Source of the DNA: Lachnospiraceae bacterium
GTDB lineage: Bacteria > Bacillota > Clostridia > Lachnospirales > Lachnospiraceae
Length of the DNA: 37,283 nt
NCBI GenBank assembly: GCA_017938485.1
Contig: JAGBBM010000075.1
Coordinates: forward strand, 1-37,283
Direction: 5' to 3'
Under the pieces are notes generated by a model that was given only the letters and a program-made list of their open reading frames with translations, did not search any database and was not told the origin of the DNA. A program made the translations under genes and the position numbers. This document shows, in pieces, positions 1 through 17,158 of the stretch; positions within the stretch are counted from its first letter, which is position 1; each line of letters begins with the position of its first letter.

Positions 1-64
1 ACGCACAGGACTTAAAATCCTGCGGGACTAATCTCCCGTACCGGTTCGATTCCGGTCGCCGGCA
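1..64 (+). tRNA. tRNA-Leu (anticodon TAA), 5' end cut by window
   Basis: The 3' part of a class II tRNA. The anticodon arm is CAGGA-CTTAAAA-TCCTG, giving anticodon TAA. A long variable arm (CGGGA/TCCCG) follows, then the T arm ACCGG-TTCGATT-CCGGT, the acceptor strand CGCCGGC and discriminator A at 64. The long variable arm plus TAA identifies leucine. The 3' 20 nt double as the attachment site of the element to the right, so this 3' end may have been supplied by the element on integration. CCA is not encoded. Confidence 0.95.
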
Positions 65-65
65 T
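45..65 (+). repeat. attL core, tRNA-Leu 3' end
   Basis: This 21-bp stretch, starting TTCGATTCCGG within the T loop and ending one base after the discriminator, recurs without mismatch at 6471-6491. Direct repeats formed by a tRNA 3' end, with an integrase gene just inside one copy, are the classic sign of site-specific integration. Confidence 0.9.
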
Positions 66-153: not shown

Positions 154-1395
154 TTAAATTGCTATATTAAAGAATGTATCTTCCAACTCATCCTCGTCAT
201 AGATGTTGTAGCTATAATGTCGTAGTGTTGTTGTTTCATCACTATGACGTAATTGCATTTGCACCGCTTTTGTAGATAATTTCTTCTCTTGCAGAAGTAT
301 GGAGGCATACGTTCTTCTGATTTTTTGCATTGAACGAACTGGAATGTCCAGTTCTCTGCAAACTCTTCTGATAGCCTTATCAATATTATAAGAACGATTC
401 CAAGTATTTGCATCCTTCTTACTTGGGAACAAGAATTCGCTATCAGAAATAGTCATAATATGTTCTAATAATCTAATTGCTTCTGCAGAAAGCTTCACAT
501 TAGCAATCTTGTCCTTTTTAGGAAGACCGATGTAGTAAACGTATCCGTTATCAGTTTTACCCTTGTGCTCGGAATGACAAATTTTAAGGTGATTTTTGTA
601 TACATCACTTCTTTGTAATGCTACAAGTTCTCCTAAACGTAAGCCAGTTTCAATATCAAGCAAAATTGCAAGTTCTTCTAAATCTGTACTATTTGCTAGA
701 TGATTCTTAATTTTCTGTATCTCAGATAATTTGAATACTTCCAGTTCATCATCACGTGTAACCTTTACAAAATATGTAGAAGGAAATTTTAATTCATCTA
801 TGATATTTTTTACAGTGATGCAATTAAGATGTAACTCTGCTTTTGCATGTAAAAATATCCTTTTTATGACTGTTTTTACATTGCTGTATCGTTTCTGTGT
901 TAATTTGATTTTCTCAACAATTGTTTTTAAGCTTTCGATAAGTAAAAGCTCATCAACTTTGCAAATAGAAATCCCTGCTAGTGATAGAGGTGCAATGTAT
1001 TTTTTAAATTCATTTTCATATTCTGTTATCGTTTTAGCAGTAACAGTGTTATGATTTCTACAATAATTGCAAAAGTCATTAAATACTTCTTCAACCGTCA
1101 TTGCATTGGCTTGAGGCGATAGATAGAACTCTATAATTGCGTTTTCTAAATCACTCCTTTCTTTGCGTGCAATAAGTCGTTTTTCTTCGCCCAATTTGGT
1201 ACACCACTTACCAGTGGTTTTATTCTGCCAAATGCTACGATGCTCTAGATGTTCATTTATAATTTTTTCTCGCTTAGTCATAATGTTTTCGGCGATCGTT
1301 TCAACAGAACACATAGTACCAGCATTAACTAAACTTTGCAATATGAGGTTATTAACTTCCTCAGTATTCATTTTAAGAGGTGGAAAATTAGCCAT
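154..1395 (-). CDS. Tyrosine site-specific integrase, full length
   Basis: A 413-residue tyrosine recombinase with an N-terminal arm/core-binding region (about 1-200) and a C-terminal catalytic domain. Visible catalytic positions are Arg in TGLRLGEL (near 252), Lys in the PKKDK beta-turn (near 295), Arg in QKIRRTY (near 359), His in QLRHSDETTT and Tyr in RHYSY near 394. The usual His of the HxxR box is Gln here (QKIR). The stop codon faces attL across about 90 bp, the usual place for an integrase. The start ATG is 2 bp after the methylase stop, and its ribosome site AAAGGAGGTGG lies inside the end of that gene, so the two are co-translated. It probably recombines the tRNA-Leu attachment sites. 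Confidence 0.92.
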   Translation of the reverse strand: MANFPPLKMNTEEVNNLILQSLVNAGTMCSVETIAENIMTKREKIINEHLEHRSIWQNKTTGKWCTKLGEEKRLIARKERSDLENAIIEFYLSPQANAMTVEEVFNDFCNYCRNHNTVTAKTITEYENEFKKYIAPLSLAGISICKVDELLLIESLKTIVEKIKLTQKRYSNVKTVIKRIFLHAKAELHLNCITVKNIIDELKFPSTYFVKVTRDDELEVFKLSEIQKIKNHLANSTDLEELAILLDIETGLRLGELVALQRSDVYKNHLKICHSEHKGKTDNGYVYYIGLPKKDKIANVKLSAEAIRLLEHIMTISDSEFLFPSKKDANTWNRSYNIDKAIRRVCRELDIPVRSMQKIRRTYASILLQEKKLSTKAVQMQLRHSDETTTLRHYSYNIYDEDELEDTFFNIAI

Positions 1396-1397: not shown

Positions 1398-2651
1398 TTA
1401 AGCCACCTCCTTTGAAATAAGGGAGGTCTCATAAGCTATAAAACCAGATAATGGGTGTGTGCTTATCAATATTTCCACTTGCCCTTTTTTTAGTTTTTTT
1501 AGGGCGTAGAAGTAGCCCCTACCAAGGTATAGTTCGTCTAGAGTGTTTCTAATAACATTTTCTGCATTCTTGTTCTTTTCGAGTGCGGAAGCTGACGCTG
1601 TAGTTCTGTAAGAAAGCAAGCACACATTGTTTGCACGGAGTTTTTCCACAGTATTTCTAAGTGTTGTATGACTCGAAAACACCTCTTTATTCTTGTTTTC
1701 AAGATTTACCTTGTAGTATTGTTCTGTGTTTATGTAAGGTGCATCAATGTAAATTAGGGAGTTAGAACTGTCTATATAGGTTTTTAGTCGGTAAATTGCA
1801 TCTCCCTTTTTGATATGTACGTTATTTAACCTTTTGGAAAATAGGTAGATGTAATCAAGGTTTGACAAATATTGTTCAGTACTTTTTTCATTGAAATACG
1901 TTTCATCTCCATAATGGGAAAAATAGCGACAGAAGAAAAAAGCTACGGCACGTTTAAGTTCAAGTTTCTTAGTTTTTCTTTTTGGTATAGTCATTTCATC
2001 CAACTGTTTTCTAAAATTCGTAAAGCTTCCTTTGATATCCGAAATTATAGATGGCTGAGACAGACTAAGCTTTAAGTTTGCAGGATAATTCTTTATAACT
2101 CGGTGTAGATTTATTAGGTCATAAGAAAAATCATTAATTGTTTCAGTTTCACTTTTTTCAGAATGTAGTAAAACGTTTGCAGTACCTGCGAAAGGCTCAA
2201 GGTAGCTGGTGAGTGCATAGGTGCTAGTAGCCTCATCAAAGATATGGTTAAGCCACTGAACCATATCAGCATTTTTCTGCCCAAGCATAAAAAAAATTTT
2301 GTTATGAGGCTTTATACAGAGCTCCTTACCAGTGTTGTTAAGCACGTCGTAGATGGCACATCTTATGGCTTCAGAAATGCAATTTGTGCCATAATAATCT
2401 TTTAGATGGGTAGTGATATCAGCATCTATATACACAGAATATGGTATAGGGCTAGTATGTTTTTCCTTTTTCACTATATCGAGTGTTTGCGATGGGGTAA
2501 GTTGGCGACGTTTTTTGCCACCTGCTAATAACTGTGTGTTAATGGCATCATCAAGACAACTTCTAATTGCAGTAGTTATGCTATTAGTGTTGTATCTCTC
2601 CAATAAAGTTTTTAAAGTTACCTCTGATAATCTGATAGAAATTTTCTTCAT
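1398..2651 (-). CDS. D12-class N6-adenine DNA methylase with RHH-like N-terminus
   Basis: A 417-residue protein. Residues 1-45 and about 70-110 each resemble a ribbon-helix-helix unit: a short strand (KISIRLSE, IPYSVYID) followed by two helices (NSITTAIRSCLDD, NCISEAIRCAIYD). From about 120 the protein looks like a Dam/D12 methylase, with the AdoMet motif EPFAGTANVLLH near 150, NDFSYDLINLHR after it, and a catalytic motif IV variant DAPY near 302 (usually DPPY). Two RHH-like units on a methylase suggest sequence-specific regulation or targeting by the N-terminus; this is inferred. It is first in an operon with the integrase. The ribosome site is AAAGGAG. No restriction partner is present, so it is probably solitary. 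Confidence 0.8.
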   Translation of the reverse strand: MKKISIRLSEVTLKTLLERYNTNSITTAIRSCLDDAINTQLLAGGKKRRQLTPSQTLDIVKKEKHTSPIPYSVYIDADITTHLKDYYGTNCISEAIRCAIYDVLNNTGKELCIKPHNKIFFMLGQKNADMVQWLNHIFDEATSTYALTSYLEPFAGTANVLLHSEKSETETINDFSYDLINLHRVIKNYPANLKLSLSQPSIISDIKGSFTNFRKQLDEMTIPKRKTKKLELKRAVAFFFCRYFSHYGDETYFNEKSTEQYLSNLDYIYLFSKRLNNVHIKKGDAIYRLKTYIDSSNSLIYIDAPYINTEQYYKVNLENKNKEVFSSHTTLRNTVEKLRANNVCLLSYRTTASASALEKNKNAENVIRNTLDELYLGRGYFYALKKLKKGQVEILISTHPLSGFIAYETSLISKEVA

Positions 2652-2698: not shown

Positions 2699-2763
2699 AA
2701 CTGGCGTGCTAACTCATCGTTACATGTAATTCATATTGTGTGCAGATACACATAACTGGCGTG
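2699..2763 (-). promoter_or_regulatory. Direct repeats upstream of methylase-integrase operon
   Basis: CACGCCAGTT (minus-strand reading) occurs at 2699-2708 and again at 2754-2763, 55 bp apart, 48 bp and 103 bp upstream of the methylase start. The second lies beside TGTG-TGCAGATA-CACA. These are good candidates for operator sites, possibly of the methylase's own RHH-like region. No clear -35/-10 pair was found. Confidence 0.4.
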
Positions 2764-2836
2764 TTTTTACACTTCTTGCTTTTTTTAGTTCAACTGAGCT
2801 ATATAAAAAGTGATTCTTAGAAAAAAGTTGTATTAT

Positions 2837-3035
2837 TTATCCATGATAGGTGTTGTTAATAAACTCAAAAAAATGTTAACCAATGTCCTACAAAATAGGT
2901 TGTGGATAAGTGGGTGACAGCAGCTGATAATATCAATAAAAACCTAGAGAAAACAAAAAAATAACCCATTACGCTGTCGCGTATGGGTAGAAAAATTCAA
3001 CTATATAGATAATATTGACAATATTGACAATATTG
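2837..3035. other. Origin-like region: DnaA boxes and iterons
   Basis: Most of the 614-bp gap 2652-3265 has no gene. It contains a perfect DnaA box in reverse (TGTGGATAA, 2901-2909), a near match TTATCCATG (2837-2845), and three head-to-tail 9-bp repeats of AATATTGAC at 3011-3035, the last one partial. The surroundings are very AT-rich. This layout is typical of replication origins of plasmids and some integrative elements. A companion initiator gene is not evident, so autonomous replication is only inferred. Confidence 0.4.
2955..2988 (-). terminator. Minus-strand hairpin terminator
   Basis: The stem ACCCATtACGC / GCGTATGGGT with a 4-nt loop is followed on the minus strand by TTATTTTTTT. 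It would stop transcription coming from the small HTH gene before it reaches the methylase operon. Confidence 0.6.
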
Positions 3036-3225
3036 TTAGTTAGACAATAATTGCCTTTTTAGTGGAATACTAAGGTGGATTATATATTAAGAGAGAGAAT
3101 AGGGATATGCTTTTAGGTTTTGGGGTAGGAATAAGTAAAATTAATAGGTTAGCTTTACAGATTGAGTATGGGGTTTGAATAGCAATATAGATATAGGTTG
3201 TAGAAGAATATTCTTAGTTTGGGGT

Positions 3226-3257
3226 ATAAAATAAGCTTCTTCGATAACGAAGAAGCT
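3226..3257 (-). terminator. Terminator of the small HTH gene
   Basis: A perfect 10-bp stem AGCTTCTTCG / CGAAGAAGCT with loop ATAA (3234-3257) lies 8 bp past the HTH stop codon. It is followed on the minus strand by TTATTTTA. Confidence 0.7.
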
Positions 3258-3265
3258 GGTAATAG

Positions 3266-3484
3266 TTAGAGTTTTTGGTCGTCGGAAGACGGAATGTATT
3301 CGACTACGTTTTCAATCTTGCAATTGAGAATACGGCAGAGGTCGTTTATAGTAGTTGTGTTCATTGGTTTATCTTTGCGTAGTTTATCTATGGTCGCACT
3401 GGATATATGATGTTTATTTATAAGTGAATATGTTGTTTCTTCTGAGGCTTCAAGTGTTTGCCAGAAAGGATTATATCTAATCAT
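3266..3484 (-). CDS. Small Cro/XRE-type HTH regulator
   Basis: A 72-residue protein with a compact helix-turn-helix of the Cro/CI type. The SATIDKLRKDKPMNTTTINDLC stretch spans the recognition helix and the next helix, and the tail NCKIENVVEY is usual for this family. The start is set at the ATG at 3484 because AAAGGAGG sits 6 bp upstream; an in-frame ATG further out has no such site. The gene is divergent from the lipoprotein at 3610. The palindrome TGACTATAGTCA in the shared gap is its likely operator, so it probably represses both directions. It is probably the regulator of the element. Confidence 0.8.
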   Translation of the reverse strand: MIRYNPFWQTLEASEETTYSLINKHHISSATIDKLRKDKPMNTTTINDLCRILNCKIENVVEYIPSSDDQKL

Positions 3485-3525
3485 AATGCACCTCCTTTGT
3501 ATAAGGTTACATTGTGGTTTCATAC

Positions 3526-3554
3526 TTGACTATAGTCAGTAAGATGACTATAAT
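3526..3554 (+). promoter_or_regulatory. Promoter with palindromic operator
   Basis: TTGACT (3526-3531), a 17-bp spacer and TATAAT (3549-3554) form a near-consensus sigma-A promoter reading toward the lipoprotein gene. A perfect palindrome TGACTATAGTCA (3527-3538) covers the -35, and a half copy TGACTATA (3545-3552) covers the -10. Binding by the divergent HTH protein would block this promoter. Confidence 0.75.
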
Positions 3555-3590
3555 TGTATGAGATAATAACAAAAAAGGAGGGAGTAATAA

Positions 3591-3600
3591 TTGTATGTAA
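3591..3600 (+). promoter_or_regulatory. Start-stop mini-ORF ahead of lipoprotein gene
   Basis: The only good ribosome site here (AAGGAGGG, 3575-3582) points at TTG 3591 (4 codons, then TAG) or at ATG 3595, which is followed at once by TAA in the same frame as the downstream gene. GTATGTA is repeated 15 bp later across a GGGGTA motif, where the next ATG (3610) lies. Expression of the lipoprotein therefore seems to need re-initiation or a leader-dependent step. Confidence 0.4.
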
Positions 3601-3609
3601 CCTAGGGGT

Positions 3610-4515
3610 ATGTACATTTTTACGAGAATGATGAGAAAGAAAATTATAAGCTTATTATTAGGTTGTGTTATGGCTATGAGCCTTGTTGCTTGTGGTGATT
3701 CAGATGGTGGTAATTCAAAAGATTCATCAAATGATAATCAAGCAGAGTCAACTGAAAGTGATGAGATCGATGAAAGTCAGGAAGATGATAAACCTATTAA
3801 GGTTCTTGATATGAAAACTAGTTATTCGTATTTTGAGGGGGAAACTGATGATGGCTCTAGAACAGTGACAACTTATGTATATAATGAGTATTTTGATGTA
3901 GTTGAAGAAAGCGAAGGTACATCGAAAATAATTTATGAATATAACGATAATCGTGATATGATTTCCGTTTCAGACGATACTACTGGATGGTCATATGAAT
4001 ATCAGTATGATAACAATGGTAATTGTATAAATGAGAAAGAATACAATAGTGATAATGAATTAATTTATGAGTATAATAATAAGTATGATGCTTCGGGTAA
4101 TATTATATCCAAAGAAGAAATTGAATATTATGATATTGAAAATAGTTCATCGACATATTGTGCATATTATGAATACGAATATGATAACAATGATAATCTA
4201 ATAAAAATGACACGAACTCAGCCAAGCTTGGCATGGGTAGAATACGAGTATGATAGCAATGATAATTTGATTATCGAAAAAAACTATGGTTATAACGAAG
4301 AAGGCTCGATTCAAATGGGCAGTTATTGTGAGTACGAATATGTAGATAATAATTTGGTTAAAAAAGTAGATTATTGTGGTGGTGAGGATGGAAATTATTC
4401 TGTAGATTCATATACAGAGTATGAATATGATTCAGAGGGGTATTTAATAAAAGAAACGCATTATGCAGATACTCGATATCATGTGACTGAGTATAAATAT
4501 ATAAGTGTTGAATAA
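3610..4515 (+). CDS. Lipoprotein with YD-type repeats
   Basis: A protein of 301 residues from ATG 3610, or 294 from the more natural MRKK start. The N-terminus is a lipoprotein signal: MRKKIISLLLG, a hydrophobic core and the lipobox LVAC, with the Cys as the probable lipid anchor. An acidic Ser/Asp/Glu-rich linker follows. From about 100 on there are imperfect repeats of the form YEYDNNGNxxxE, similar to the YD repeats of RHS-type and other surface proteins. It is probably displayed on the cell surface. It is cargo of the tRNA-Leu element under the HTH-controlled promoter. Its role is unknown: adhesion, surface exclusion or binding are all possible. The translation start is uncertain because of the start-stop leader. 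Confidence 0.8.
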   Translation: MYIFTRMMRKKIISLLLGCVMAMSLVACGDSDGGNSKDSSNDNQAESTESDEIDESQEDDKPIKVLDMKTSYSYFEGETDDGSRTVTTYVYNEYFDVVEESEGTSKIIYEYNDNRDMISVSDDTTGWSYEYQYDNNGNCINEKEYNSDNELIYEYNNKYDASGNIISKEEIEYYDIENSSSTYCAYYEYEYDNNDNLIKMTRTQPSLAWVEYEYDSNDNLIIEKNYGYNEEGSIQMGSYCEYEYVDNNLVKKVDYCGGEDGNYSVDSYTEYEYDSEGYLIKETHYADTRYHVTEYKYISVE

Positions 4516-4546
4516 GAAACATATCTCATGATGTCTGGGGTATTTT

Positions 4547-4578
4547 AAGCTGGTGAGCTTTGGCTTGCCAGCTTTTTT
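4547..4578 (+). terminator. Terminator of lipoprotein gene
   Basis: A 12-bp stem AAGCTGGTGAGC / GCTTGCCAGCTT with loop TTTG and two G-T pairs ends in TTTTTT. Confidence 0.85.
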
Positions 4579-5099
4579 GTGTCCGTAGATGTAAACTGGT
4601 CTCGTTCTGGATTAAAACTGCTGTCGTTCTGTTTAGTGCTGATTATGTCAAGAGTAACACTGAATTTGTTTCTACTCAAAACTTTAATTGTTCAGATGCA
4701 CACTGAAACCGTTGTGATTCACTCGTTGTAGTTATAGTTTGATTTCTTATTATGTAAGTCTGGGGTAGATTAATTGAGAGAAAATACTGTCAGATGAATA
4801 TATCCATCCCTTTAGATTAAGTGAACATTTTTTGATTTCCTATAATCAATTAACAATAATTTAAGTGAAAAAATCGTTCATATTCACGTAAATTTTTGAG
4901 GTTGATTTAAAAAGCTGGATGTACCTTTGGTTTTCTCTAGGGGTATGAATTTTAATAAGACAAATCTTTTAGTGGAATTATCTACCTTGTAGTTGCAAAC
5001 TTCCTATTTTATAAGATTAAATACCTACCCACTAAGATGAAGTTAACTTCTATGAAGGATTTAAACAATATTTTTTCAAGAAGAAGGAGGAGTTAGAAT
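4579..5099. other. Long gap without a gene; GGGGTA motifs and hairpins
   Basis: I see no convincing gene in these 521 bp. They hold GGGGTA at 4762 and 4940, and a hairpin TTTAAGTGAA / TTCACGTAAA (near 4861-4892). A wider stem TTAGTGG / CCACTAA (near 4969 and 5027) encloses AAACTTCCTA, a half-site shared with the 13-6-13 repeat at 5683. There is also a perfect palindrome GAAGTTAACTTC (5039-5050). The sequence looks regulatory or structural rather than coding. Confidence 0.4.
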
Positions 5100-5558
5100 A
5101 TGTTATTTGGAGTTTATGCTTATGGAAATGTTGAGATGAAGAGAGAGGTGCTTAGGGGTAGAAAGATAAAGGAGACAGAATTGATTCATCTGTCTGAGGT
5201 ACACAAGCTGTTTCAGAGATTAAGTGCCAATGACACAGTTATCGTGTACAGTGTTAAAGATTTTGCCAGTGTGACTATGTTCAGTAGATTTGTTGCAGAA
5301 GTGACTAAGCGAGGGGTATCCGTTAAGTTCATTCACGAGCATTACTTGGATGTAGGTAATGGCAAGGTATGGAAAGATAGCGTGCAAGCTCATATTAATG
5401 CATTGATTGGGGTAGAGCAGTATTGCTACGAAAGACTATCACGTGGTTTAAAACTGAATAAGGCTGCATCGGAGTTCTTGGCAGATGTGGTTGGGGGATG
5501 TTCGGTGAGTGCCTTGTCGGTTGCGTTTTGTAATGATGGTATCCTGCACCGTGGATAG
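5100..5558 (+). CDS. Resolvase-like protein lacking catalytic residues
   Basis: A 152-residue protein with the pattern of a serine-recombinase N-terminal domain. Residues 30-110 follow resolvase order: L..L...L..NDTVIVYSVKDF, then FVAEVTKRGVSVKFIHEHYLDV, then VQAHINALIGVEQ (compare DTLVVWKLDRLGRS, RGV and GALAEFER). The nucleophile segment YARVSTxxQ is replaced by YAYGNVEMKRE with no Ser at that place, and the DRLGRS arginines are replaced by KDFAS. The C-terminus ends soon after a short HTH-like piece (SVSALSVAF). It has probably lost catalysis and may act as a DNA-binding or architectural protein. The ribosome site is AAGGAGGAG. It lies upstream of the minimal tyrosine recombinase on the same strand. 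The fold assignment is from my alignment by eye. Confidence 0.55.
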   Translation: MLFGVYAYGNVEMKREVLRGRKIKETELIHLSEVHKLFQRLSANDTVIVYSVKDFASVTMFSRFVAEVTKRGVSVKFIHEHYLDVGNGKVWKDSVQAHINALIGVEQYCYERLSRGLKLNKAASEFLADVVGGCSVSALSVAFCNDGILHRG

Positions 5559-5654
5559 GGTGTCGGTGTACGGTTGGCTCTGTGGCTTTGTACGTGGCTT
5601 CACGTTGGCTTTTTAGCTCTTGGGGGTATGGAACTGCCACGATTGGATATTCTT

Positions 5655-5735
5655 TGAACACGGCTTGAATTACGGCGTTAAAAAACTTCGTAATTCTAGC
5701 AAATTAGGAAGTTTCCTTGATTTAAGCCATGTTCA
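5655..5735. repeat. Nested cruciform upstream of minimal recombinase
   Basis: The outer arms are 5655-5672 and 5718-5735 (TGAACACGGCTTGAATTA against TGATTTAAGCCATGTTCA), an 18-bp pairing with one mismatch and two G-T pairs as RNA. They enclose the 13-6-13 inverted repeat at 5683-5714. GGGGTA copies lie on both sides (5623, 5738). Confidence 0.7.
5683..5714. promoter_or_regulatory. Candidate tyrosine-recombinase core site (13-6-13)
   Basis: The arms AAACTTCGTAATT and AATTAGGAAGTTT are inverted repeats with one mismatch, separated by the 6-bp spacer CTAGCA. This is the geometry of dif and lox-like core sites. It lies 95 bp upstream of a catalytic-domain-only tyrosine recombinase. Related half-sites are AAACTTCCTATT near 5000 and AATTAGGAAATTT near 5775. 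The function is inferred from shape and position. Confidence 0.45.
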
Positions 5736-5808
5736 TAGGGGTAGCTTTATATTTTTGGAAGTTTTGAGAGTGAAATTAGGAAATTTAGATTAAGAAGGTG
5801 GGGATAAT

Positions 5809-6384
5809 ATGAATAAAACAACTAGACCGATTGAGGATAGCGAGTATGATGAACTTATTGAGGCTATACGAAACGGCTTTAAGTATCGTGGGGTAAGTCA
5901 CAAGCCGAACCCAAGAATAGCTTTGGCATTACAGCTTGAGAGAAATCTTGGGTTGAGAATTTCTGATGTGTTGAGACTTACTATGGAGTCCTTTGTCAGA
6001 GTTGGTGATAAATATAGAATTAATATCTATGAAAAAAAGACAGGAAAGTATAGAGATTTTCTTGTTCCAGTTGAGGTGTATACCATAATTGTTGAGTATG
6101 CCTGCAAGTATGGGGTAGGTTCACAAGCTAGGTTGTTTGGTATTTCAGAGAGAATGGTTTCAGAGCAGTTAAAACTGGCTTGTCTGTACTTGGGGTATAA
6201 AGGAATTGGTACACATTCTTTTAGGAAAGCATTTGCGACGCATGCATATGCTAATTCAGATTATAACGCTGAAGTTGTAAGAAGATTGCTTCAACATTCG
6301 TCGGTGGTTACTACTCAGAGATATATTGGGGTAGGGGATAAAGAGATAGAAGATGCGTTGTTGAAAACGGTTAAGCTTTGTTAG
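5809..6384 (+). CDS. Minimal tyrosine recombinase, catalytic domain only
   Basis: This 191-residue protein is a bare tyrosine-recombinase catalytic domain. Visible are Arg in LGLRISDVLRL (near 50), Lys in EKKTGKYRDF (near 76), HSFRKAFATHAY (His and Arg of HxxR, near 137), His in LLQHSSVVTTQRYI (near 163) and the Tyr nucleophile in RYIG near 172. All catalytic residues are present. The core-binding N-domain of about 100 residues found in XerC/D and integrases is absent, so DNA recognition may need a partner, perhaps the resolvase-like protein upstream. The ribosome site is AAGGTGGGG. The gene lies beside attR, opposite the full-length integrase at attL. Four GGGGTA motifs fall inside it. Confidence 0.85.
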   Translation: MNKTTRPIEDSEYDELIEAIRNGFKYRGVSHKPNPRIALALQLERNLGLRISDVLRLTMESFVRVGDKYRINIYEKKTGKYRDFLVPVEVYTIIVEYACKYGVGSQARLFGISERMVSEQLKLACLYLGYKGIGTHSFRKAFATHAYANSDYNAEVVRRLLQHSSVVTTQRYIGVGDKEIEDALLKTVKLC

Positions 6385-6392
6385 GTTATTAA

Positions 6393-6412
6393 GGGGGTTA
6401 ACCTAGGGTTAA
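6393..6412. promoter_or_regulatory. Right pair of GGGTTAAC repeats, possible arm sites
   Basis: GGGGGTTAACC (6393-6403) is followed directly by TAGGGTTAAC (6404-6412), mirroring the pair at 132-152 beside attL. GTTAAC also forms the centre of the palindrome at 5039-5050. Confidence 0.45.
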
Positions 6413-6470
6413 CTTTTGTTGAAACGCTCGCAACCTCCTTATTTTACTTAGTTTTTATAGTAGACGACTC

Positions 6471-6491
6471 TTCGATTCCGGTCGCCGGCAT
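6471..6491 (+). repeat. attR core, copy of tRNA-Leu 3' end
   Basis: This is a perfect 21-bp copy of 45-65 with no tRNA body in front of it. It marks the right end of the element. Confidence 0.9.
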
Positions 6492-6498
6492 TAAAAGA

Positions 6499-6523
6499 GC
6501 ACATCAGTATGATGTGCTTTTTT
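6499..6523 (+). terminator. Displaced original terminator of tRNA-Leu
   Basis: GCACATC-AGTAT-GATGTGC followed by TTTTTT starts 8 bp after the attR core. In the empty chromosome the tRNA would run straight into it, so it is most likely the host tRNA terminator. Confidence 0.8.
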
Positions 6524-8062: not shown

Positions 8063-8194
8063 AAAACATTCTCCTCTAATTATCTTTTATAGGTAGTATG
8101 GCAGAGAAAATAAAAAATATGTTATATATTTTCCTACTGTAAAACCTTACCACTTATGTTATAATTCATATTATATTGGGTTACTGTACCTATT

Positions 8195-8222
8195 TTGATT
8201 TTTGAATTATATCAGATATAAA
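8195..8222 (+). promoter_or_regulatory. Likely promoter of the TelA/AAA+ cluster
   Basis: TTGATT (8195-8200), a 16-bp spacer and TATAAA (8217-8222). An alternative -10 is TAAAAT, two bases on with an 18-bp spacer. A second TATAAT stands at 8159-8164. The ribosome site GAGGAGG precedes the ATG at 8251. Confidence 0.5.
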
Positions 8223-8250
8223 ATATGTAATGATTTGAGGAGGAAAAATT

Positions 8251-10434
8251 ATGAAACAATGTAATAATTGTGGTAGTACATTTGATGATAGTGCAATGAT
8301 ATGTGGTTATTGTGGAAATAAGTTGGATGGAGCACAGCAGATACCACAGAGTATGCCATACCAACCAGTTCCACAGATGCAGTTAAATATGTCGATTCCT
8401 CAGCAACCTGTGAAGGAAAAGAAGCCAGTAAATAAGACGGCAATAATAATTGGAGTGTCTGTATTTTTACTTCTTGCCATTGCAGGAGTGGTTGTATATT
8501 TGCTTCTGACAAGGGCTCCAAAGAGTGATTATTATGTGGAGAATTTCCCTAAAGAATTACTTGAGTACAGTATAAATGGTGAAGAATACACATCAGAAAT
8601 AACAGATTTAAAGATAGTTAAAGAAAAGAAGGATGGAGATGAAGTTGAGGCTTATTGTGAGATTGTCTTGGAAGATGAGTGGATGACAAGAACCTTATAC
8701 TATACTTTCGAAGTTGAGCGAGATAAAGAGTGGAAGATAGAGGAGTATACTCAGGAAAAAGAGGATGAGTTAGTTCCTACCCAGCAGTATGCATATAGTC
8801 TTGTAGCTGTGCGACCAGATACTAAGTACCAGATGGAAAATATATCAAACTATCAGGTCATTGAAGATAACGAACCTAGTATATTTACTTTTTCTTATGA
8901 TGTGGACGATGAGTATGAGTTGGTTACCTTGGAAGGTACAGCTATATTTGAGGCATACTTTGATGAAAATACATTCCGTTATGATGATATTGACAGAAGA
9001 AAGAGTTACACTTTAAGTTTTGGAATTTCCGATGATTCCTCCCTTAAAGCCACTTGGGATTTGGATGGTTCCTATGCCTGTATAGATGATGACGGAAAAA
9101 CTTCTCTTGGTATGATTATAGACAGTGCAGGGAGCGACACTGCCAGCATAGAGATATATTCAAAGGCACTTGGTGAGGATTACAGTGAAGTGACTATATC
9201 TGATAAACCGCTTTTTGATTCTACTGGTGCTCTCATTTATGAGCTTAATTGTGAATCTATGAACAGTGAAATTGATGCGTCTAATTTAAAGTATATTCTG
9301 TGGTTTTATGCAGATGAGGTTTACTATGCTGAGATTGACCATGACGATGGTTTTGGCGTATTTGAAATGATGGAGACAGAATTTACCGTAGAAGAACCTG
9401 AGGTGGAAGAGCCTGTTGTTGAGAATACAGAGACTGTTCCTTTGCCAAGTATGGAGGGTGATGTGATTCACGTGTACTCTTTTAATCACGAATTTGGCAG
9501 TAGATTAGATGTATATTTCAGAGCAAATTATCCTGAGTATGCTGATAAGGTTATATATCACAATTTGAATATGTTAGGACTTTCAGAAGAATATTTCCAA
9601 GCTATTGAGGAGGCTATGAATTCTGATGAAGTGCCATCTATAGTTGTCTACGACATAGATGCTATAGATAATCTTTCTAACAGGGATATATTTGTGCCTG
9701 TTAGCTCTATAGGTATTACAGACACCATGTATGCCAATGCTTATGACTATACAAAGAAGGTTGCTACCTTTGATGGAGAACTTATGGGTCTTACATATCA
9801 GGCATTTCCTGGATGCTTTGTCTATGACCCAGCTATAGCTAAGGAAATTTTTGGACACTCAGACCCTGAGTCTGTGAACAACTTGGTGGTTGATTGGGAT
9901 ACCTTCCTTGAAACAGCAGCGATTTTAAAGGAGCATGGATATTATATGGTTGCAGATGTTGAGGATATAACAACTGGTGCTGGTGGTGAAGTCCCTCAGT
10001 ATGTTATAGATGAGGTTCTTGCCAATGGATATTCTGCGGAACTTGGACAGTGGTCATCGGAATGGTATTCTTATCCAGATAATGTTTTTGGATACTTTGG
10101 TTGTCCATGGTTTGTTCAGTGGAGTATTGGAAGTATGGGTTTAGAAAAAACTATCTCAGTGTGCGAGGGACCAAGAGACTTTTATTGGGGTGGCTCTTAT
10201 GTGGGAGTGACTAATGCATGTACTAATTCTGAACTTGCTGCATTTGTTATGTACACTCTTTGCTGTGATAACCAAGTGATGTATGATATGCATGTGTATG
10301 ATTATGAATATCCGAATAATACCGTAGCGGTGCAGCAGTTGATTTATGATGGATATGGAGCTCTTGACGTTCTTGGTGGTCAAAATCCTTTGCCAGTGTA
10401 TGACGCAGTTGGTCAATCCATCGTGTTAGAATAA
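8251..10434 (+). CDS. Zinc ribbon, membrane helix and solute-binding-like fusion
   Basis: A 727-residue protein in at least four parts. The N-terminus is a zinc ribbon with Cys 4, 7, 18 and 21 (CNNC and CGYC). A Pro/Gln-rich linker leads to a single membrane helix at about 63-86, with no cleavable signal. Residues about 90-395 are an acidic region I do not recognise. From about 400 (DVIHVYSFNHEFG) it resembles a family 1 extracellular solute-binding protein: PSIVVYDID, GELMGLTYQAFPGCFVYDP, WDTFLETAAILKEHGY, and a late segment WGGSYVGVTNACTN. The cytoplasmic ribbon and outside binding domain suggest a sensor. It heads a co-directional cluster with an AAA+ ATPase and TelA protein, and no ABC transporter genes are nearby. 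Confidence 0.75.
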   Translation: MKQCNNCGSTFDDSAMICGYCGNKLDGAQQIPQSMPYQPVPQMQLNMSIPQQPVKEKKPVNKTAIIIGVSVFLLLAIAGVVVYLLLTRAPKSDYYVENFPKELLEYSINGEEYTSEITDLKIVKEKKDGDEVEAYCEIVLEDEWMTRTLYYTFEVERDKEWKIEEYTQEKEDELVPTQQYAYSLVAVRPDTKYQMENISNYQVIEDNEPSIFTFSYDVDDEYELVTLEGTAIFEAYFDENTFRYDDIDRRKSYTLSFGISDDSSLKATWDLDGSYACIDDDGKTSLGMIIDSAGSDTASIEIYSKALGEDYSEVTISDKPLFDSTGALIYELNCESMNSEIDASNLKYILWFYADEVYYAEIDHDDGFGVFEMMETEFTVEEPEVEEPVVENTETVPLPSMEGDVIHVYSFNHEFGSRLDVYFRANYPEYADKVIYHNLNMLGLSEEYFQAIEEAMNSDEVPSIVVYDIDAIDNLSNRDIFVPVSSIGITDTMYANAYDYTKKVATFDGELMGLTYQAFPGCFVYDPAIAKEIFGHSDPESVNNLVVDWDTFLETAAILKEHGYYMVADVEDITTGAGGEVPQYVIDEVLANGYSAELGQWSSEWYSYPDNVFGYFGCPWFVQWSIGSMGLEKTISVCEGPRDFYWGGSYVGVTNACTNSELAAFVMYTLCCDNQVMYDMHVYDYEYPNNTVAVQQLIYDGYGALDVLGGQNPLPVYDAVGQSIVLE

Positions 10435-10458
10435 TTTATTCCATGTTGGGGGAAGTAT

Positions 10459-11628
10459 ATGTACAGAATTATGGATGCAGAAGAAATTGAAATAAATAAG
10501 ATAGACAATCTAAAGATGATACATATCTATGATTTGTCTGGTTCGGCTATAGGTAGTGAAAATGTTACTTCCCTAGCAGTTTATTATGGTGACAACAAGC
10601 AGAAGAATTTGTGTGCCATGGACAAGCATTACAATTTGCTTGTAGAAAGAGTTTTATATCTTTATTCTCGCCTTGAGGATAAGTCTTCCATTATGATGGA
10701 TGAGGCCACAAAGAATATGATAGATGTGGCAATGGGAAGTGAGGATGACTGTATTCTTGCAGTTTCAAAGTTAGGGAAGAGATATTTGTCGTGGGATGGA
10801 GAAGAGGTACCTAGGGTAAATAACCAGACCTATATTAGACTAACCACTATGCCTATGATAAGGTATTATCTGACAGAGATTTATTCTATGCTGGAAGTGC
10901 CTATTGAATTTAAAGAAGATAAACTTGGTTGGCATGGAAATGTTATTCTTGAGGCATCGTCAGGTGATAAAGATATTATTTTTCCTATAAGATTTGACTA
11001 TGATTCAGTTAATTCTTACTCAGTACATATAGGGAATTTCTTAAAAGAAAAGAGTGTTATAGTCTTCGACATAAGCTATGGAGAGAGACAGCTTACAGTT
11101 AATTTCACCAGCGAGGATGCGGGATTACTTGGTCAGAGTAGCTTTATCTTTGATAAGACTGGTGGATTATCAAAGACTAGCATAAGTATAAATGATACCT
11201 TGGTATATTATCAGGATACAGCTATTGCCGAGGCAAAGGTGGAGGATGTTTCTTCCTTTGTCCATATGGGTGTATTAGAGCTTTTGTCACAAAATGTAAG
11301 GATATCAAGGCTTCCATGGAATTCATATTATATGTTTGGATATACGGAAAATGTAACTAAGGATATATGTAGAACAGATTATGATACAGGGTATATAGAT
11401 TGTAATGAAGATGCAGTGCTTGTGAGACAGTATGGAGTAAGTCATATAGAAAATAAATCAACTGGTCTTAACATTAAAACCAATGGCTCCATGATGGAAC
11501 GATTGATGCCTGATAAAAAAAATGCAGGTATACAAACCTGTTTTTATCCAGTGGGTTACTATTCGAGTTGGGATTACAAGAACAATCTTGAGAATAAATA
11601 TTTCTATGAGGAGCTAAAGGAGAAGTAA
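10459..11628 (+). CDS. Unknown protein, cluster member
   Basis: A 389-residue protein that I do not recognise. It has no signal peptide or membrane helix and is rich in beta-type segments with many Tyr and Asp (for example IRLTTMPMIRYYLTEIY, DIIFPIRFDYDSVNSYSVHIGNF). The ribosome site GGGGGAAG is good. It lies 24 bp after the fusion protein and 1 bp before the ATPase gene, so it is translated as part of the same operon. By position it may be an adaptor or substrate of the ATPase; this is only a guess. Confidence 0.7.
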   Translation: MYRIMDAEEIEINKIDNLKMIHIYDLSGSAIGSENVTSLAVYYGDNKQKNLCAMDKHYNLLVERVLYLYSRLEDKSSIMMDEATKNMIDVAMGSEDDCILAVSKLGKRYLSWDGEEVPRVNNQTYIRLTTMPMIRYYLTEIYSMLEVPIEFKEDKLGWHGNVILEASSGDKDIIFPIRFDYDSVNSYSVHIGNFLKEKSVIVFDISYGERQLTVNFTSEDAGLLGQSSFIFDKTGGLSKTSISINDTLVYYQDTAIAEAKVEDVSSFVHMGVLELLSQNVRISRLPWNSYYMFGYTENVTKDICRTDYDTGYIDCNEDAVLVRQYGVSHIENKSTGLNIKTNGSMMERLMPDKKNAGIQTCFYPVGYYSSWDYKNNLENKYFYEELKEK

Positions 11629-11629
11629 G

Positions 11630-13852
11630 ATGGGATTATTTAATAGATTTACAGAAAAACCAAAGGATTATGATTGCATGAAGCGCTTTGATGAGCTTTT
11701 AAGTGAGGTTCAGGGGCTTTATGTTTATCACACCAATAAGAACTTTATGGAGTATTTACAAAAGCTCAAGAATGAGCCGGATAATATACCTATCAAGCCT
11801 ATGGAGCTTTTTGTGGATACCTTGGAAGTGATTTTGGCTAATAAAACCAACTTTAATTCAGATAATTATCTCAATATTATGAGAAGAGCTGAGTCTATAT
11901 ATAAGGACATATTTGTCTACGATGAAAAGACTCCTGACTTTGATTTACTTAGAATAATTTTTATTGAGATTTTCGATGAAAATGGTATTGCAGCAAGAAA
12001 CCTCTTTAATGAGGAGCTTTTTGATACCTTCAAGAATAAGTATAATTATATTACCTTTATGAAGACCCTTCTTTTGGATATGAAGTCTTCAGAGATTATG
12101 TATGATTTGGTTCAGTATGCCTTAAGAGTTCGCTCTACATTTATTGATGATGATTTGTATACCGCGAACCTTAAGTTTGTTGCAAATAGAATGCTTACCT
12201 CTGCGGACCGTCAGTTGGTATTTGAATATGAGTCAAAGAAAGTGGAGCGTATGGCTGGTTTTTACAGCATCAGTGAAAATGATGTGGCACAGACTGAAAA
12301 GCAGCTTGTTGAAGCTAATACCTTACTCAAGCAAAGCGTGGATGTCCTTGAGCAGGTGGACAAGAAGGCTGCACAGCTTACTCGTATTATGAATGATACA
12401 ATAGGTGCCATTACAGATATAAGCAAGAGAGAAACAGATATTATCTCAGCAAAGGCTAATTCTGCAAGAGAAGATATAAATGCGGCTTATAACAGTTTCC
12501 TTGAGGAACAAAGACAGGAGGTAATTCTTCAAAAGGAAGTGCTTCTTGACCAGATATTTAAGGAATCTGAGACAAAGCTTTCAGAACTTAGACATATGTC
12601 TAGAGCCATAGCAGCCACAGCTACTTCTGAGCTTTCCCGCATCAACGCAGAGACTTCAAATGCCATCGATAAGATTAGTACATATATGAACAATGAGGAT
12701 ATGGAAAAGGCTCTTTCCATGGCTGAGCAAAATGAAGCTCTCTTAAGTAAGATAAATAAGCTTGAGATACTAAATGACAAGAACATAGCTATACTAGAGA
12801 AGAATCTAGACGAGGAAAGAGAAAAGGCTGAGGCAGTTTCTGCACCACAGAACAGTATGGGTGTAACTACTGTATCCTACGCTACACCAACAGTTGCTCT
12901 TCCTGAGACAAATCCTCTTCCTATTCCGGAGGTAAATCCTCTTCTTGATCAGAGCATACCATTTGAGCAAAGATTCAAGATAGTTATGGAGGAGAAAAAG
13001 AGGAGAGAGGAAGCTGGAGAGCATTTCCACAAGATGTTTGATGATGTGGTTATCGCCCTTATGGAGGATGCAAATCCTTACATGATAGGTCCTTCTGGAT
13101 GTGGTAAGACCTATATGGTTAAGCAGATAGCTTCCATTCTCAATATGGATTTTATAGATATAGGATATATAAATGAGGAGTACGATATCTTAGGCTTCCA
13201 AACAGCCACAGGTGGATACAGTACCCCTAACTTCTACAGATGTTACAAGTACGGTATTATTGCGTTTTGTGATGAGCTGGATAATGGTAACAGTAGGGCA
13301 ACGGTTAAGCTTAACTCCTTCCTATCCAACAACAAGGATGCCAGCTACAACTTCCCTAACGGTGAAAATGTAAAGCGACACAATAACTTTAGAATAATTG
13401 CAGCAGGTAATACTGCTGGAAATGGCGCAGATGCAAATTACAACACAAGAGAGAAGATTGAAGAGTCTGTACAGCAGAGATTTATGCCAGTTTATGTGGG
13501 CTACGACAATTACGTAGAGGGTAAGATACTTAAGGATTATCCGGATTGGTACGAATTTATTGTTATGTTCCGTGATGGAACAGATGCTTGGGGTAGTATG
13601 AATGATACCTCTGCGGCAGGAATTATCACAACTAGAGATACAGCTAAGATTAAAAGATATTTGGATAACAAGAGCTTTGATATGGGCAAGATTCTTGACT
13701 ATGAATTTATTCAGACAAAGGACATGGAGTATCTTGCCTTCCTTGCTAGCCATATGAAGGGCAAGCTTGCAGAGCATCCAAAGGCAACTGAGATTTTTGC
13801 AATGTTTGAGGAGAAGGTAAATGAGCTTAGACAAACAGGTGGAAGAAGATAG
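11630..13852 (+). CDS. Coiled-coil MoxR/CbbQ-like AAA+ ATPase
   Basis: A 740-residue protein. Residues 1-210 are helical; about 215-405 is a long coiled coil rich in Glu, Lys and Ala; a Pro-rich hinge follows. The C-terminal AAA+ domain has Walker A GPSGCGKT near 487, a Walker B-like FCDELDN near 546, sensor 1 RIIAAGNTAG near 588 and a probable arginine finger in SVQQRFMPVY. Order and spacing fit the MoxR/CbbQ (AAA_5) group, which typically works as a chaperone-like remodeller with a vWA partner. The next gene overlaps it by 32 bp and may be that partner. The long coiled coil is unusual for CbbQ proteins and suggests tethering to the other coiled-coil proteins here. Confidence 0.85.
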   Translation: MGLFNRFTEKPKDYDCMKRFDELLSEVQGLYVYHTNKNFMEYLQKLKNEPDNIPIKPMELFVDTLEVILANKTNFNSDNYLNIMRRAESIYKDIFVYDEKTPDFDLLRIIFIEIFDENGIAARNLFNEELFDTFKNKYNYITFMKTLLLDMKSSEIMYDLVQYALRVRSTFIDDDLYTANLKFVANRMLTSADRQLVFEYESKKVERMAGFYSISENDVAQTEKQLVEANTLLKQSVDVLEQVDKKAAQLTRIMNDTIGAITDISKRETDIISAKANSAREDINAAYNSFLEEQRQEVILQKEVLLDQIFKESETKLSELRHMSRAIAATATSELSRINAETSNAIDKISTYMNNEDMEKALSMAEQNEALLSKINKLEILNDKNIAILEKNLDEEREKAEAVSAPQNSMGVTTVSYATPTVALPETNPLPIPEVNPLLDQSIPFEQRFKIVMEEKKRREEAGEHFHKMFDDVVIALMEDANPYMIGPSGCGKTYMVKQIASILNMDFIDIGYINEEYDILGFQTATGGYSTPNFYRCYKYGIIAFCDELDNGNSRATVKLNSFLSNNKDASYNFPNGENVKRHNNFRIIAAGNTAGNGADANYNTREKIEESVQQRFMPVYVGYDNYVEGKILKDYPDWYEFIVMFRDGTDAWGSMNDTSAAGIITTRDTAKIKRYLDNKSFDMGKILDYEFIQTKDMEYLAFLASHMKGKLAEHPKATEIFAMFEEKVNELRQTGGRR

Positions 13853-14780
13853 TGCTGAGATTACATATGGAGTCAGTGAGGATACCTGTCCTTACTTTAA
13901 GACTGTAACAAGGGGTAATCTCACTATCTACAAAATGAATTTCAAATCCTTGAGTGGCCTTCACTTATTTCTGACAGGGAACCCAGTGGTAAATAATAAT
14001 GTATTCTATACTCAAAGAAGTATTAAGGGAAGTGAGAAGTTTGCCGGGGCACCCCTTGAGGAAGCTATAGGTTATCTCATAGGTGGGTACTTGAAGGATT
14101 TCAGTATGTTTGTAAAACTAAAAAAAGAAATCGACAGTGTAAATGTAAAGTATGAGGCAAAAAGAAAGGTGAGAACTGCGGTGGTAGGTTCAAGACCTAA
14201 TGTACCTGCATTTATCGCGGGAGCACCTAAGACTATGTACCGCATGGATAGAGCCAAGGAAAAGAAGTTCATCGATATATATATCAACCTTGCCTATGAC
14301 AACAACACAACGGAAGTTCAGGTTAGAAACCGTGGTATACTTATACTCAATCTAGTAAAGCTTCTTGAAAACAATGATTACGGAGTAAACCTTAAGGTCT
14401 TCGAGGCTTGTATGGTGGAAAATGAAGCATTTTGTGCTACAGTAGGACTTAAACAACCAGGGGAGCTTTTAAACGAAAAGAAATGCTATTTCCCTATGTG
14501 TGGCAAGGAATTCTTGAGAAGAATACTGGCGAGAGTAAAGGAGTCAGTTCCGTTTAAGGAAAATTGGCATATGAGCTATGGACAGGTTTTGAGTGAAGGT
14601 CAAACCAGACTTATTATGGATATACCAGAGGATGCCATACTTATAGATGCTCCTGACAAAATGGGTATAAAGGGTGAGGATATATATGAGGACGCGGATG
14701 CATTTTTAGAGAAGATAAATCTGGACAAGGAAATTGCCGTTCCACATTACGCAAAGATGAATGAGGAGGAAGAATTTTGA
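13821..14780 (+). CDS. Possible vWA-like partner of the ATPase
   Basis: A 319-residue soluble protein. The middle part (KKFIDIYINLAYDNNTTEVQ, then RGILILNLVKLLENNDYGVNLKVFEAC) has the strand-helix-strand rhythm of a vWA domain, but the DxSxS metal motif is not intact (INLAYDN). Late conserved-looking segments are MCGKEFLRRILARVKE and LIMDIPEDAILIDAPDKMGIKG. The start codon at 13821 follows GAGGAGAAGG closely and overlaps the ATPase gene by 32 bp, so the two are tightly coupled. MoxR-type ATPases usually pair with vWA proteins, which supports the assignment. The domain call is by eye and could be wrong. Confidence 0.6.
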   Translation: MSLDKQVEEDSAEITYGVSEDTCPYFKTVTRGNLTIYKMNFKSLSGLHLFLTGNPVVNNNVFYTQRSIKGSEKFAGAPLEEAIGYLIGGYLKDFSMFVKLKKEIDSVNVKYEAKRKVRTAVVGSRPNVPAFIAGAPKTMYRMDRAKEKKFIDIYINLAYDNNTTEVQVRNRGILILNLVKLLENNDYGVNLKVFEACMVENEAFCATVGLKQPGELLNEKKCYFPMCGKEFLRRILARVKESVPFKENWHMSYGQVLSEGQTRLIMDIPEDAILIDAPDKMGIKGEDIYEDADAFLEKINLDKEIAVPHYAKMNEEEEF

Positions 14781-15835
14781 GTGATACATTAATGACATAC
14801 GATATGCTACAAACCATTGCAGATAATCCGGAGATTAATTTGACTGCGGAAGATATTGTTTTGGTAGATAAATATGCCAGCGAGATTGATCTTAAAAATG
14901 CTACGGCAGTTATTACATATGGTGCAGATATTCAAACAAAATTATCTGAACTTTCTGGTAGTATGCTTACAAGCATGAATACTCAGGATATAGATGATAT
15001 AGGTGACACATTAGATGAGACAATAGGATATCTTAGGAGTATTGAGGAGGAAGAGGGAAAGTTTACCCTATTTAAGAAAAAGAAAGAGCTTTCTATGCGT
15101 ACTAGATATAGAGAAGCTGAGAAAAATATAGACAAGGTTACTAATTCTCTTAGAGAACATCAGGTACGTCTTATGAAGGACTGTGCTATGCTAGACCAGA
15201 TGTATCAGATGAATATAACCTATTTTAAAGAGCTTAATATAATGATTGCTGCAGGTAAGAAAAAACTTGAAGACTGTAAGCTGGTGGAGCTTCCTGCTTT
15301 GGAGCAAAAGGCAATTTCTTCAGGTCTTGCTCAGGATGCTCAGGCTTGCAATGATTTTAAGACTCAGATGGATAGACTTGAAAAGAAGATATACGAGCTT
15401 GAGCTTACAAGAAGTATATCCCTTCAGTCAGCACCACAGATTAGACTTATTCAGTCCAATCAGGCAACTATGGCGGAGAAGGTTCAATCAACCTTGCTTA
15501 ATACTATTCCTCTTTGGAAGAATCAGGTGGTTCTTGCTCTTGGTATGGAGCATACAAAGCAGGCGGCTAAGGCAGATGCAGAGATTAGTGCTATGACTAA
15601 CAAATTACTTCTTAAGAATGCGGAGACTCTTAAGCTTTCATCTGCCCAGACAGCTCAGGCTGCAAATAGAGGATTTGTAGATGTTTCTACCCTTGATGCT
15701 ACCAATAAGCTCCTTATAGAAAGCTTGGATGAGGTGGCTCGTATCAAAGCGGAAGGTCAGGCAAAGAGAAGTGTGGCAGAGCTTGAACTGGTTCGTATTG
15801 ATGAGGAGATGAAGAAGAGATTGCAGGGGATGTAG
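14777..15835 (+). CDS. TelA family (toxic anion resistance) protein
   Basis: A 352-residue, mostly helical protein. It follows the TelA family: an early L.ELSGSMLTSMNTQDIDDIGDTLDETIGYLRSI region, KFTLFKKKKELSMRTRYREAEKNIDKV, a central LDQMYQMNITYFKELN, and the distinctive NTIPLWKNQVVLALGMEHTKQA before a helical tail. TelA proteins were named from tellurite resistance in some bacteria and belong to the Ter/stress gene network; their chemistry is unknown. Translation starts at a TTG whose last two bases open the TGA of the previous gene, after AGGAGGAAG, so it is coupled to the vWA-like gene. It has no membrane segment. Confidence 0.88.
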   Translation: MSDTLMTYDMLQTIADNPEINLTAEDIVLVDKYASEIDLKNATAVITYGADIQTKLSELSGSMLTSMNTQDIDDIGDTLDETIGYLRSIEEEEGKFTLFKKKKELSMRTRYREAEKNIDKVTNSLREHQVRLMKDCAMLDQMYQMNITYFKELNIMIAAGKKKLEDCKLVELPALEQKAISSGLAQDAQACNDFKTQMDRLEKKIYELELTRSISLQSAPQIRLIQSNQATMAEKVQSTLLNTIPLWKNQVVLALGMEHTKQAAKADAEISAMTNKLLLKNAETLKLSSAQTAQAANRGFVDVSTLDATNKLLIESLDEVARIKAEGQAKRSVAELELVRIDEEMKKRLQGM

Positions 15836-17011: not shown

Positions 17012-17065
17012 AATATAATTGTGAAAAAATGTGAAATATAATAAAAAACTAAAAGAATATATTAG

Positions 17066-17154: not shown

Positions 17155-17158
17155 ACTA

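Follow-up and report, generated by a model that had tools for sequence, protein, structure and literature searches.

The hexamer GGGGTA recurs in a single orientation through the right half of a 6.4-kb tRNA element of a Lachnospiraceae bacterium, and the same one-way word is found in related mobile elements that carry one clade of a small Xer-like tyrosine recombinase, here called Yrec. The element lies complete in the window (the whole stretch of DNA analysed, 37,283 nucleotides, contig JAGBBM010000075.1 of assembly GCA_017938485.1), and is bounded by 21-bp attachment (att) repeats at 45-65 and 6471-6491. The word is exact, or very nearly so, polar and conserved, and it is imposed on non-coding as well as coding DNA; its flanks are element-specific and it is tied to a single Yrec clade. 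We tentatively read GGGGTA as an element-encoded, polar, sequence-specific signal of the Yrec module, working like the FtsK-orienting polar sequences (KOPS) or the archaeal short polarized sequences (ASPS), and regard this as possible rather than probable. On this reading, Yrec or a Yrec-specific partner would be the reader, and directional recombination the purpose.

The GGGGTA run in the window

Sixteen copies of GGGGTA lie between 3102 and 6340, all on the plus strand, and TACCCC is absent from this interval. The preliminary description, which a model had made from the letters alone, proved exact on all 16 positions, on the strand and on the absence of the reverse word. The copies are:

Copies 1-4, plus strand: 3122..3127, 3221..3226, 3605..3610, 4437..4442
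Copies 5-8, plus strand: 4537..4542, 4762..4767, 4940..4945, 5155..5160
Copies 9-12, plus strand: 5313..5318, 5409..5414, 5623..5628, 5738..5743
Copies 13-16, plus strand: 5890..5895, 6112..6117, 6192..6197, 6328..6333

The base before the word had been described as nearly always A or T, and is so in 15 of 16 copies, the exception being a G at 5623. The window holds 25 GGGGTA and two TACCCC in total, which leaves nine plus-strand and two minus-strand copies outside 3102-6340 where roughly eight had been counted. Positions 1-2700 contain one copy on the plus strand (0.45 expected) and none on the minus strand; the motif is restricted to the right half of the element. Beyond the element, at 6601-37283, there is a mild plus-strand excess (8 against 4.0 expected; minus strand 2 against 1.8), and four further stretches of the same genome, picked from a listing of GGGGTA clusters, have small clusters, at best 4 against 0.9.

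GGGGTA is the most frequent hexamer of 3102-6340, the runner-up having 11 copies. Base composition predicts 1.05 copies, so that the great excess reported earlier holds while its figure of fewer than one was slightly too low. An order-2 Markov model predicts 2.0 copies in 2701-6500, and in 2000 order-2 simulations of 3102-6340 the mean was 1.94 and the maximum 9; any hexamer whatever reached 16 copies in 0.35% of these simulations. None of the 18 one-mismatch words has more than three copies in 2701-6500 (observed/expected ratio, O/E, from 0 to 2.0 on tiny counts). G-rich words are therefore not generally raised there; the possibility that others are raised equally on this strand came out negative for these 18 words, and the observation stands. 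The missing TACCCC is mostly a matter of composition, because the stretch is G-rich and C-poor (0.03 expected in 2701-6500 under the order-2 model).

Read from the left, the element encodes the integrase and the Dam-like methylase on its minus strand, then the VanU-like regulator, the RHS-repeat protein, R152 and Yrec. Its features are as follows.

1-64: tRNA match (Rfam), 5' part cut by the contig start; tRNA-Leu is the naming of the preliminary description, the isotype not being confirmed by a tool
45..65, plus strand: attL, the 3' end of the tRNA gene, repeated directly and exactly (21 bp) at 6471-6491
154..1395, minus strand: full-length tyrosine integrase, 413 amino acids (aa), probable tRNA integrase (Pfam Phage_integrase 2e-13; PHROG integrase)
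1398..2651, minus strand: Dam-like DNA adenine methyltransferase, 417 aa (TIGR00571 9.5e-13, under the curated cut-off; phrog_56 1.6e-23)
3266..3523, minus strand: VanU-like helix-turn-helix regulator, 85 aa (NF000090 1.5e-5, far under the curated cut-off)
3610..4515, plus strand: RHS/YD-repeat protein, 301 aa, cargo (Pfam RHS_repeat 2.6e-7; N-terminus lipoprotein-like as judged by eye)
5100..5558, plus strand: R152, 152 aa, weak likeness to the serine-resolvase N-terminal domain, with relatives in 16 loci including the window
5684..5713, no strand assigned: predicted dif/lox-like core with 12-bp imperfect inverted arms (11/12) and a 6-bp centre, found by eye
5753..5786, plus strand: two probable accessory half-sites, GGAAGTTTT and GGAAATTTA, 22 bp apart, placed by eye and by analogy with the direct half-sites of relatives
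5809..6384, plus strand: Yrec, 191-aa Xer-like tyrosine recombinase (Pfam Phage_integrase 5.8e-13)
6471..6491, plus strand: attR, right boundary of the element, 21-bp direct repeat matching attL exactly

The integrase gene contains GGGGTA in neither orientation. The resolvase likeness of R152 is slight: its relative in locus L031 matches Pfam Resolvase at 0.036 only, and its best match in the PDB has an E value of 0.33. Rfam at gathering scores, run on nine sources, found no RNA family inside the element beyond the partial tRNA. An inverted repeat, ACCCATTACGC/GCGTATGGGT, is visible by eye at 2960-2990, in an origin-like stretch immediately before the motif run.

The word in related elements

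A first search, at E≤1e-15, covered 299 genomes of the family and found relatives of Yrec in 11, among them the window's own genome. A scan of the genome collection kept 79 loci, taken from the best 80 of 212 matches; together with the window and two plasmids they make a set of 82 rows, each centred on Yrec or a relative. A locus was called positive when it combined Poisson p<0.01 with a three-fold strand ratio. The groups g2 and g3 were defined after inspecting the counts, and serve for description only. Gene content was the criterion for a set of 25 small-element loci: within 6 kb, each encodes a protein related to R152, to a rolling-circle Rep (Pfam REP_ORF2-G2P) or to an IS110 transposase; L096, whose IS110 match is only 24.6% identical, was excluded.

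Where 26.5 copies of GGGGTA would be expected on the Yrec strand of these 25 loci there are 161, and the opposite strand, with 5.0 expected, has none; 19 of the loci pass the threshold singly. The opposite-strand depletion is modest, and the zero is only partly depletion because much of it is C-poverty. A relative of the rolling-circle Rep was found by blastp in 12 of the 25. In the small elements L021 (G144, 8191-18951), L053 (Lachnotalea glycerini DSM 28816) and L064 a rolling-circle Rep is followed by R152, Yrec and an IS110-family transposase, and G144 has two such units in tandem, about 6.1 kb apart; the presence of an IS110 transposase and a cryptic-plasmid-type Rep within one unit looks unusual.

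A second motif group consists of larger elements with gene content unlike that of the small ones. Five such stretches, totalling 100.1 kb, contain 202 GGGGTA, where 27.9 would be expected, and 11 copies in the opposite orientation, a density inflated by the placing of their ends by eye at the limits of the motif; all 18 one-mismatch words have O/E of 0.47-1.31 there. Three of the five have about ten genes in common. In G358 the run spans contig positions 331,937 to 352,277 and then ends, and in G359 it begins at the contig start and stays dense for about 31 kb. L109/G111, left out of the 100.1-kb count, has 27 copies against 3 in 20 kb and 9 against 3.4 in 8 kb. Motif runs of about 20 to 31 kb are seen in L130, L131, L132, L134 and L135, which carry a tyrosine integrase or a large serine recombinase; one has a GmrSD-like gene, and most of their scanned genes are without a family match. 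A 346-aa gene of the large elements was uninformative as a marker, with no match in the 299 family genomes.

In coding sequence the word mostly exceeds what codon choice would give. Synonymous-codon shuffling gave means of 7.9 for G358 (31 seen), 5.8 for G360 (19), 7.3 for G359 (29), 3.0 for G361 (15), 4.4 for G362 (9) and 0.4 for the window (4). All 200 shuffles were exceeded in five of these six elements; in G362, where the shuffle maximum was 12, they were not. The window value (0.37, maximum 2) comes from the two whole open reading frames (ORFs) of the slice, as the recombinase ORF was cut by it and not counted. GGGGTA occurs in all three phases and its density outside called ORFs, where the recombinase ORF of the window was placed in this count, is at least equal to that within them, which bears out the earlier remark that the reading phases differ and that codon preference is no explanation.

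GGGGTA is also better conserved between relatives than other words. Among 1200 high-scoring segment pairs, which as aligned pairs are not independent, 33.7% of copies (n=796) are conserved at 65-75% identity, compared with 11.8% of all hexamers and 7.0% of one-mismatch words. The corresponding values are 56.2, 31.9 and 33.8% at 75-82% identity, 68.4, 48.8 and 39.2% at 82-90%, and 76.1, 65.2 and 61.6% at 90-97%. The ends of homology (n=712) lie within 20 bp of a GGGGTA in 7.3% of cases, for a null mean of 5.5% (5-95% range 3.9-6.9%). We rejected the word as a recombination breakpoint on this count: the signal is weak, and alignments may simply end close to conserved words.

The bases around the word differ from element to element. 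A precedes it in 52 of 52 copies in G358, C or T follows it in 57 of 61 in G359, A follows it in 21 of 27 in L109/G111, and T stands on both sides in seven of seven in L108; in the window, C never directly follows it (0/16). Within the one genome of Acetivibrio ethanolgignens, GTT or CTT follows five of the six copies of L093 and none of the 14 of L054 and L061. On these small numbers, the flanking dialect seems to be set by the element and not by the host. Because the dialects are element-specific even inside one host, the reader is probably element-borne.

Yrec and its predicted recombination site

Yrec residues R50, K77, K80, H136, R139, H163 and Y172 are invariant across the alignment of relatives, and we take them to have the catalytic roles. 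Its closest relatives in the PDB are the XerC-like 4a8e, XerA, XerH, IntI4 and XerD, and the NCBIfam Xer models match it below their cut-offs. From its length and match, Yrec appears to be a catalytic domain only. Relatives are also present on the plasmids pCY360 and pCd1_2.

A tree built from the 82 Yrecs places every one of the 30 motif-positive loci within one clade of 38 rows (96/84), and none of the 44 rows outside it is positive. Those 44 together have 48 copies against 33.3 expected, and 28 against 30.5 on the other strand; one of them, L099, passed the Poisson test (5 against 1.1) and failed the strand ratio with two copies on the other strand. Related elements without the enrichment had been named beforehand as evidence against a signal. 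They do occur, outside the clade; inside it, L095 has no copy and seven further rows show a sub-threshold excess, these eight together having 24 copies against 10.3 expected.

Yrec is the sole protein family that clustering and blastp found in the window as well as in both small and large elements, within a search of ORFs of at least 45 aa that RNAs and relatives beyond the reach of blastp would escape. This bears on the two other readers that had been suggested. Relatives of the window's methylase are detected in three of the 25 small-element loci with blastp and in two with tblastn, while the 14 loci of the other motif group have none, and blastp finds no relative of the resolvase-like R152 in the large motif-bearing elements; neither suggestion is supported. 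The Rep was likewise rejected as the cause of the enrichment. Over five stretches that carry a Rep relative but gave no Yrec hit, the Rep strand has 6 copies in all against 5.0 expected (singly 0/0.6, 3/1.8, 1/0.9, 0/0.7 and 2/1.0 seen/expected). This control is weak: L155 is a decayed copy close to the Yrec of G144, L153 (G257) has a Yrec on another contig, and the Rep piece of L154 starts at a contig end. Five Yrec relatives on viral contigs, including two pairs that look near-identical, have 5 copies against 4.7. A search for a different polar word in the other Yrec clades returned nothing comparable, mainly lox-like half-sites in several of them.

In several relatives a palindrome with a short centre, lox- or dif-like, stands upstream of Yrec and is followed by two direct half-sites. 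The palindromes of L088 and L114 are akin to the 12-6-12 arrangement of the window, and that of L085 has a centre of 7 bp; an inverted-repeat scan of 23 loci did not return a dif/lox-type site in every locus. Because dif/lox-like palindromes adjoin Yrec in several relatives, and its best solved relatives are Xer enzymes, the recombinase, core and half-sites look like a small self-contained Xer/dif system.

Three further features of these sites are recorded here. The palindromes of L085 and L088 are 33-34 bp long, loxP-like and perfect in their arms, and lie next to motif-less Yrec relatives. The large-element loci L126, L108, L103, L104 and L114 have a conserved non-coding block (GGCACACnGGGC-like) before the core, upstream of Yrec, which by eye is partially like the small-element loci and has no Rfam match in the loci scanned. 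Another word, AGGAACT, shows strong enrichment and strand bias in the 25 loci, with 94 copies against 8.9 expected and 9 on the other strand; some of these are direct copies repeated round the core site (L053 3290-3400, L073 2222-2300).

A possible polar signal and its candidate readers

If GGGGTA is a signal of the Yrec module, copies would be retained along the motif-bearing part of the element in a single orientation, and the recombination machinery would sense from them which way the element DNA runs. Only correctly oriented core sites would then recombine, for example in resolving multimers of an excised or replicating circle. Such a signal would be unipolar and written by the element itself, unlike KOPS or ASPS. 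We hold with greater doubt the wider proposal that the Yrec lineage brought with it a new genome mark, a one-way hexamer extending over 3 to about 31 kb, with flank dialects, and read motor-free by the recombinase complex.

The closest parallels are with known directional systems. Cre/loxP plasmid dimer resolution also has one tyrosine recombinase beside a palindromic site; Cre is a longer protein than Yrec and is not known to have a dispersed sequence signal. Chi is likewise a short asymmetric polar word, read by the host RecBCD or AddAB and enriched host-wide. GGGGTA is not over-represented in this way: in 19 stretches outside the elements it occurs 64 times against 61.4 expected, and 57 of 61 genomes have fewer copies of it than of the reversed word, counts that come from unordered contigs and are silent on leading-strand skew. 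KOPS and the SpoIIIE recognition sequences (SRS), together with XerCD/dif, present the same combination of a short, asymmetric, G-rich, strand-polar word with an Xer-type recombinase and a dif-type site, the site here being a predicted one; Yrec is an Xer-related tyrosine recombinase with conserved catalytic residues. The strand bias is as expected of such words, 161:0 in the 25 loci and 202:11 in the five large elements. However, KOPS converge on dif while GGGGTA is unipolar through the core, and GGGGTA is further unlike KOPS in not being enriched in host DNA, in its element-specific flanks and in a reader that we only infer. KOPS density is quoted as 1 per 13 kb (excerpt of PMC5357621), compared with about 1 per 200-1000 bp here. 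A 2025 plasmid study describes KOPS bias on large replicons and no KOPS enrichment on replicons with Xer sites (PMC11724359). ASPS (GTTG/GTTC) lie around the archaeal XerA/dif, for which no FtsK is known (PMC2958812), and are likewise short polar words tied to a single Xer recombinase; they are chromosome-wide 4-mers whose skew inverts near dif, whereas GGGGTA is a 6-mer on mobile elements with no inversion. A polarity signal of the Chi or KOPS kind, as first suggested, is the best of the readings then offered, though GGGGTA does not look like a host-wide Chi or KOPS.

A number of results weigh against a directional signal of the Yrec module. The orientation is constant through the core: with the core taken as lying 150 bp before Yrec, the 25 loci have 76 copies upstream and 85 downstream, all on the plus strand, and the window has 12 upstream and 5 downstream of its core, again all plus. 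Core and half-sites bear no likeness to GGGGTA, the spacing of the copies has no regularity beyond chance, none of the scanned element genes was recognised as a translocase, and to our knowledge no tyrosine recombinase reads dispersed hexamers. Of the 38 clade rows, eight are below threshold. Neighbouring words are mildly raised in the 25 loci (GCGGTA 2.7-fold, GTGGTA 1.8, GGAGTA 1.5). Among the first 12 regions, ranked with an order-1 model and including the window, GGGGTA is the top word in only three (the window, G144 and G257); it is 3rd in G111, 12th in G047, 25th in G274 and 91st in G131, is not raised in G202, G142 and G169, and has no copy in G122 and G174. Related loci have copies common by descent, so that the counts are not independent events. 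Finally, the minus-strand integrase and methylase genes of the window have one copy in 2.5 kb and none in reverse, and called minus-strand ORFs over seven elements, many of them probably spurious, have 12 copies in 10.7 kb; an orientation signal for the whole circle would not predict such sparse copies in integrase and methylase unless these are recent modules.

Other readers have to be considered on the same evidence. GGGGTA on the displaced (plus) strand could be a start site for second-strand (or lagging-strand) synthesis, read by a primase or another single-stranded DNA reader. The strictness of the strand bias, the Rep relatives in nearly half of the small-element loci and an excess of G over C (skew 0.20-0.26 in the seven elements measured) all suit this, as does T7 primase, which reads a short G-rich site, (G/T)2GTC, with help from its 3' flank (excerpt of PMC12839067). 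The T7 word is nevertheless a different one, no Rep is seen in the element of the window, neither Rep nor primase was recognised among the part of the large-element genes that was scanned, and no primase gene among scanned element genes as a whole; Rep relatives without a Yrec hit showed no excess in the weak control above, and a host primase would not give element-specific flanks. We consider this explanation rather unlikely. Reading by a motor, whether the FtsK, SpoIIIE or SftA of the host or the translocase of a helper element, would make GGGGTA a true KOPS or SRS, and it has in its favour a polar, G-rich, asymmetric word beside an Xer-like recombinase and a dif-like site, as well as the KOPS bias of P1, which uses Cre/loxP (PMC11724359). 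The host-wide counts given above argue against it, as do an orientation that does not flip at the core and dialects that differ, on small numbers, inside one host, and we think it improbable.

Somewhat similar doubts apply to a signal in RNA, GGGGUA in sense transcripts (or the non-template strand) being read by an elongation or RNA-binding factor. The copies are on the strand of the co-directional genes, and in the seven elements the density is 1.12/kb in called minus ORFs against 1.72 in plus ORFs, with the single copy in 2.5 kb of the window agreeing. However, the density is highest between genes (2.77/kb), no common factor other than Yrec was found, and the word has no preference for loops, its mean unpaired value being 0.354 against 0.40-0.41 in two controls and 0.38 when the word was permuted within the same flanks. 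A hairpin-loop signal was rejected on this last result, the word being slightly more paired than the controls; a transcript-borne signal of any kind seems to us unlikely. The strict single orientation would also suit an escape from Type III or Type ISP restriction, which requires inverted sites and leaves uniformly oriented ones safe, as with the 36 EcoP15 sites of T7, all in one orientation (excerpt of PMC3874151). This would account for the absence from one strand and not for a six- to eight-fold excess on the other; the opposite-strand depletion is modest in the small elements, the large elements have 11 copies there, and the tie to one recombinase clade is left unexplained, which makes evasion very unlikely. 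Composition, codon use or chance can draw on the G-rich, C-poor stretch and is practically ruled out as a cause, being already refuted by the Markov, codon-shuffle, neighbour-word and conservation tests.

In the open-access literature, the matches listed included no account of GGGGTA, of strand-biased motifs in mobile elements or of recombinase elements such as these. The known polar words KOPS, SRS, Chi and ASPS extend over whole chromosomes, and those with a known reader are read by host machines. A one-way word in mobile elements of gut bacteria, tied to one recombinase lineage, suggests a directional signal that has gone unrecognised. If this is true, a polar word travelling with the element's own recombinase would be a compact natural system for studying how the direction of DNA is sensed, and the changes of flank between elements would allow the co-evolution of reader and word to be followed. 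GGGGTA is also a sequence signature for finding a group of gut-Clostridia elements that has been poorly described.

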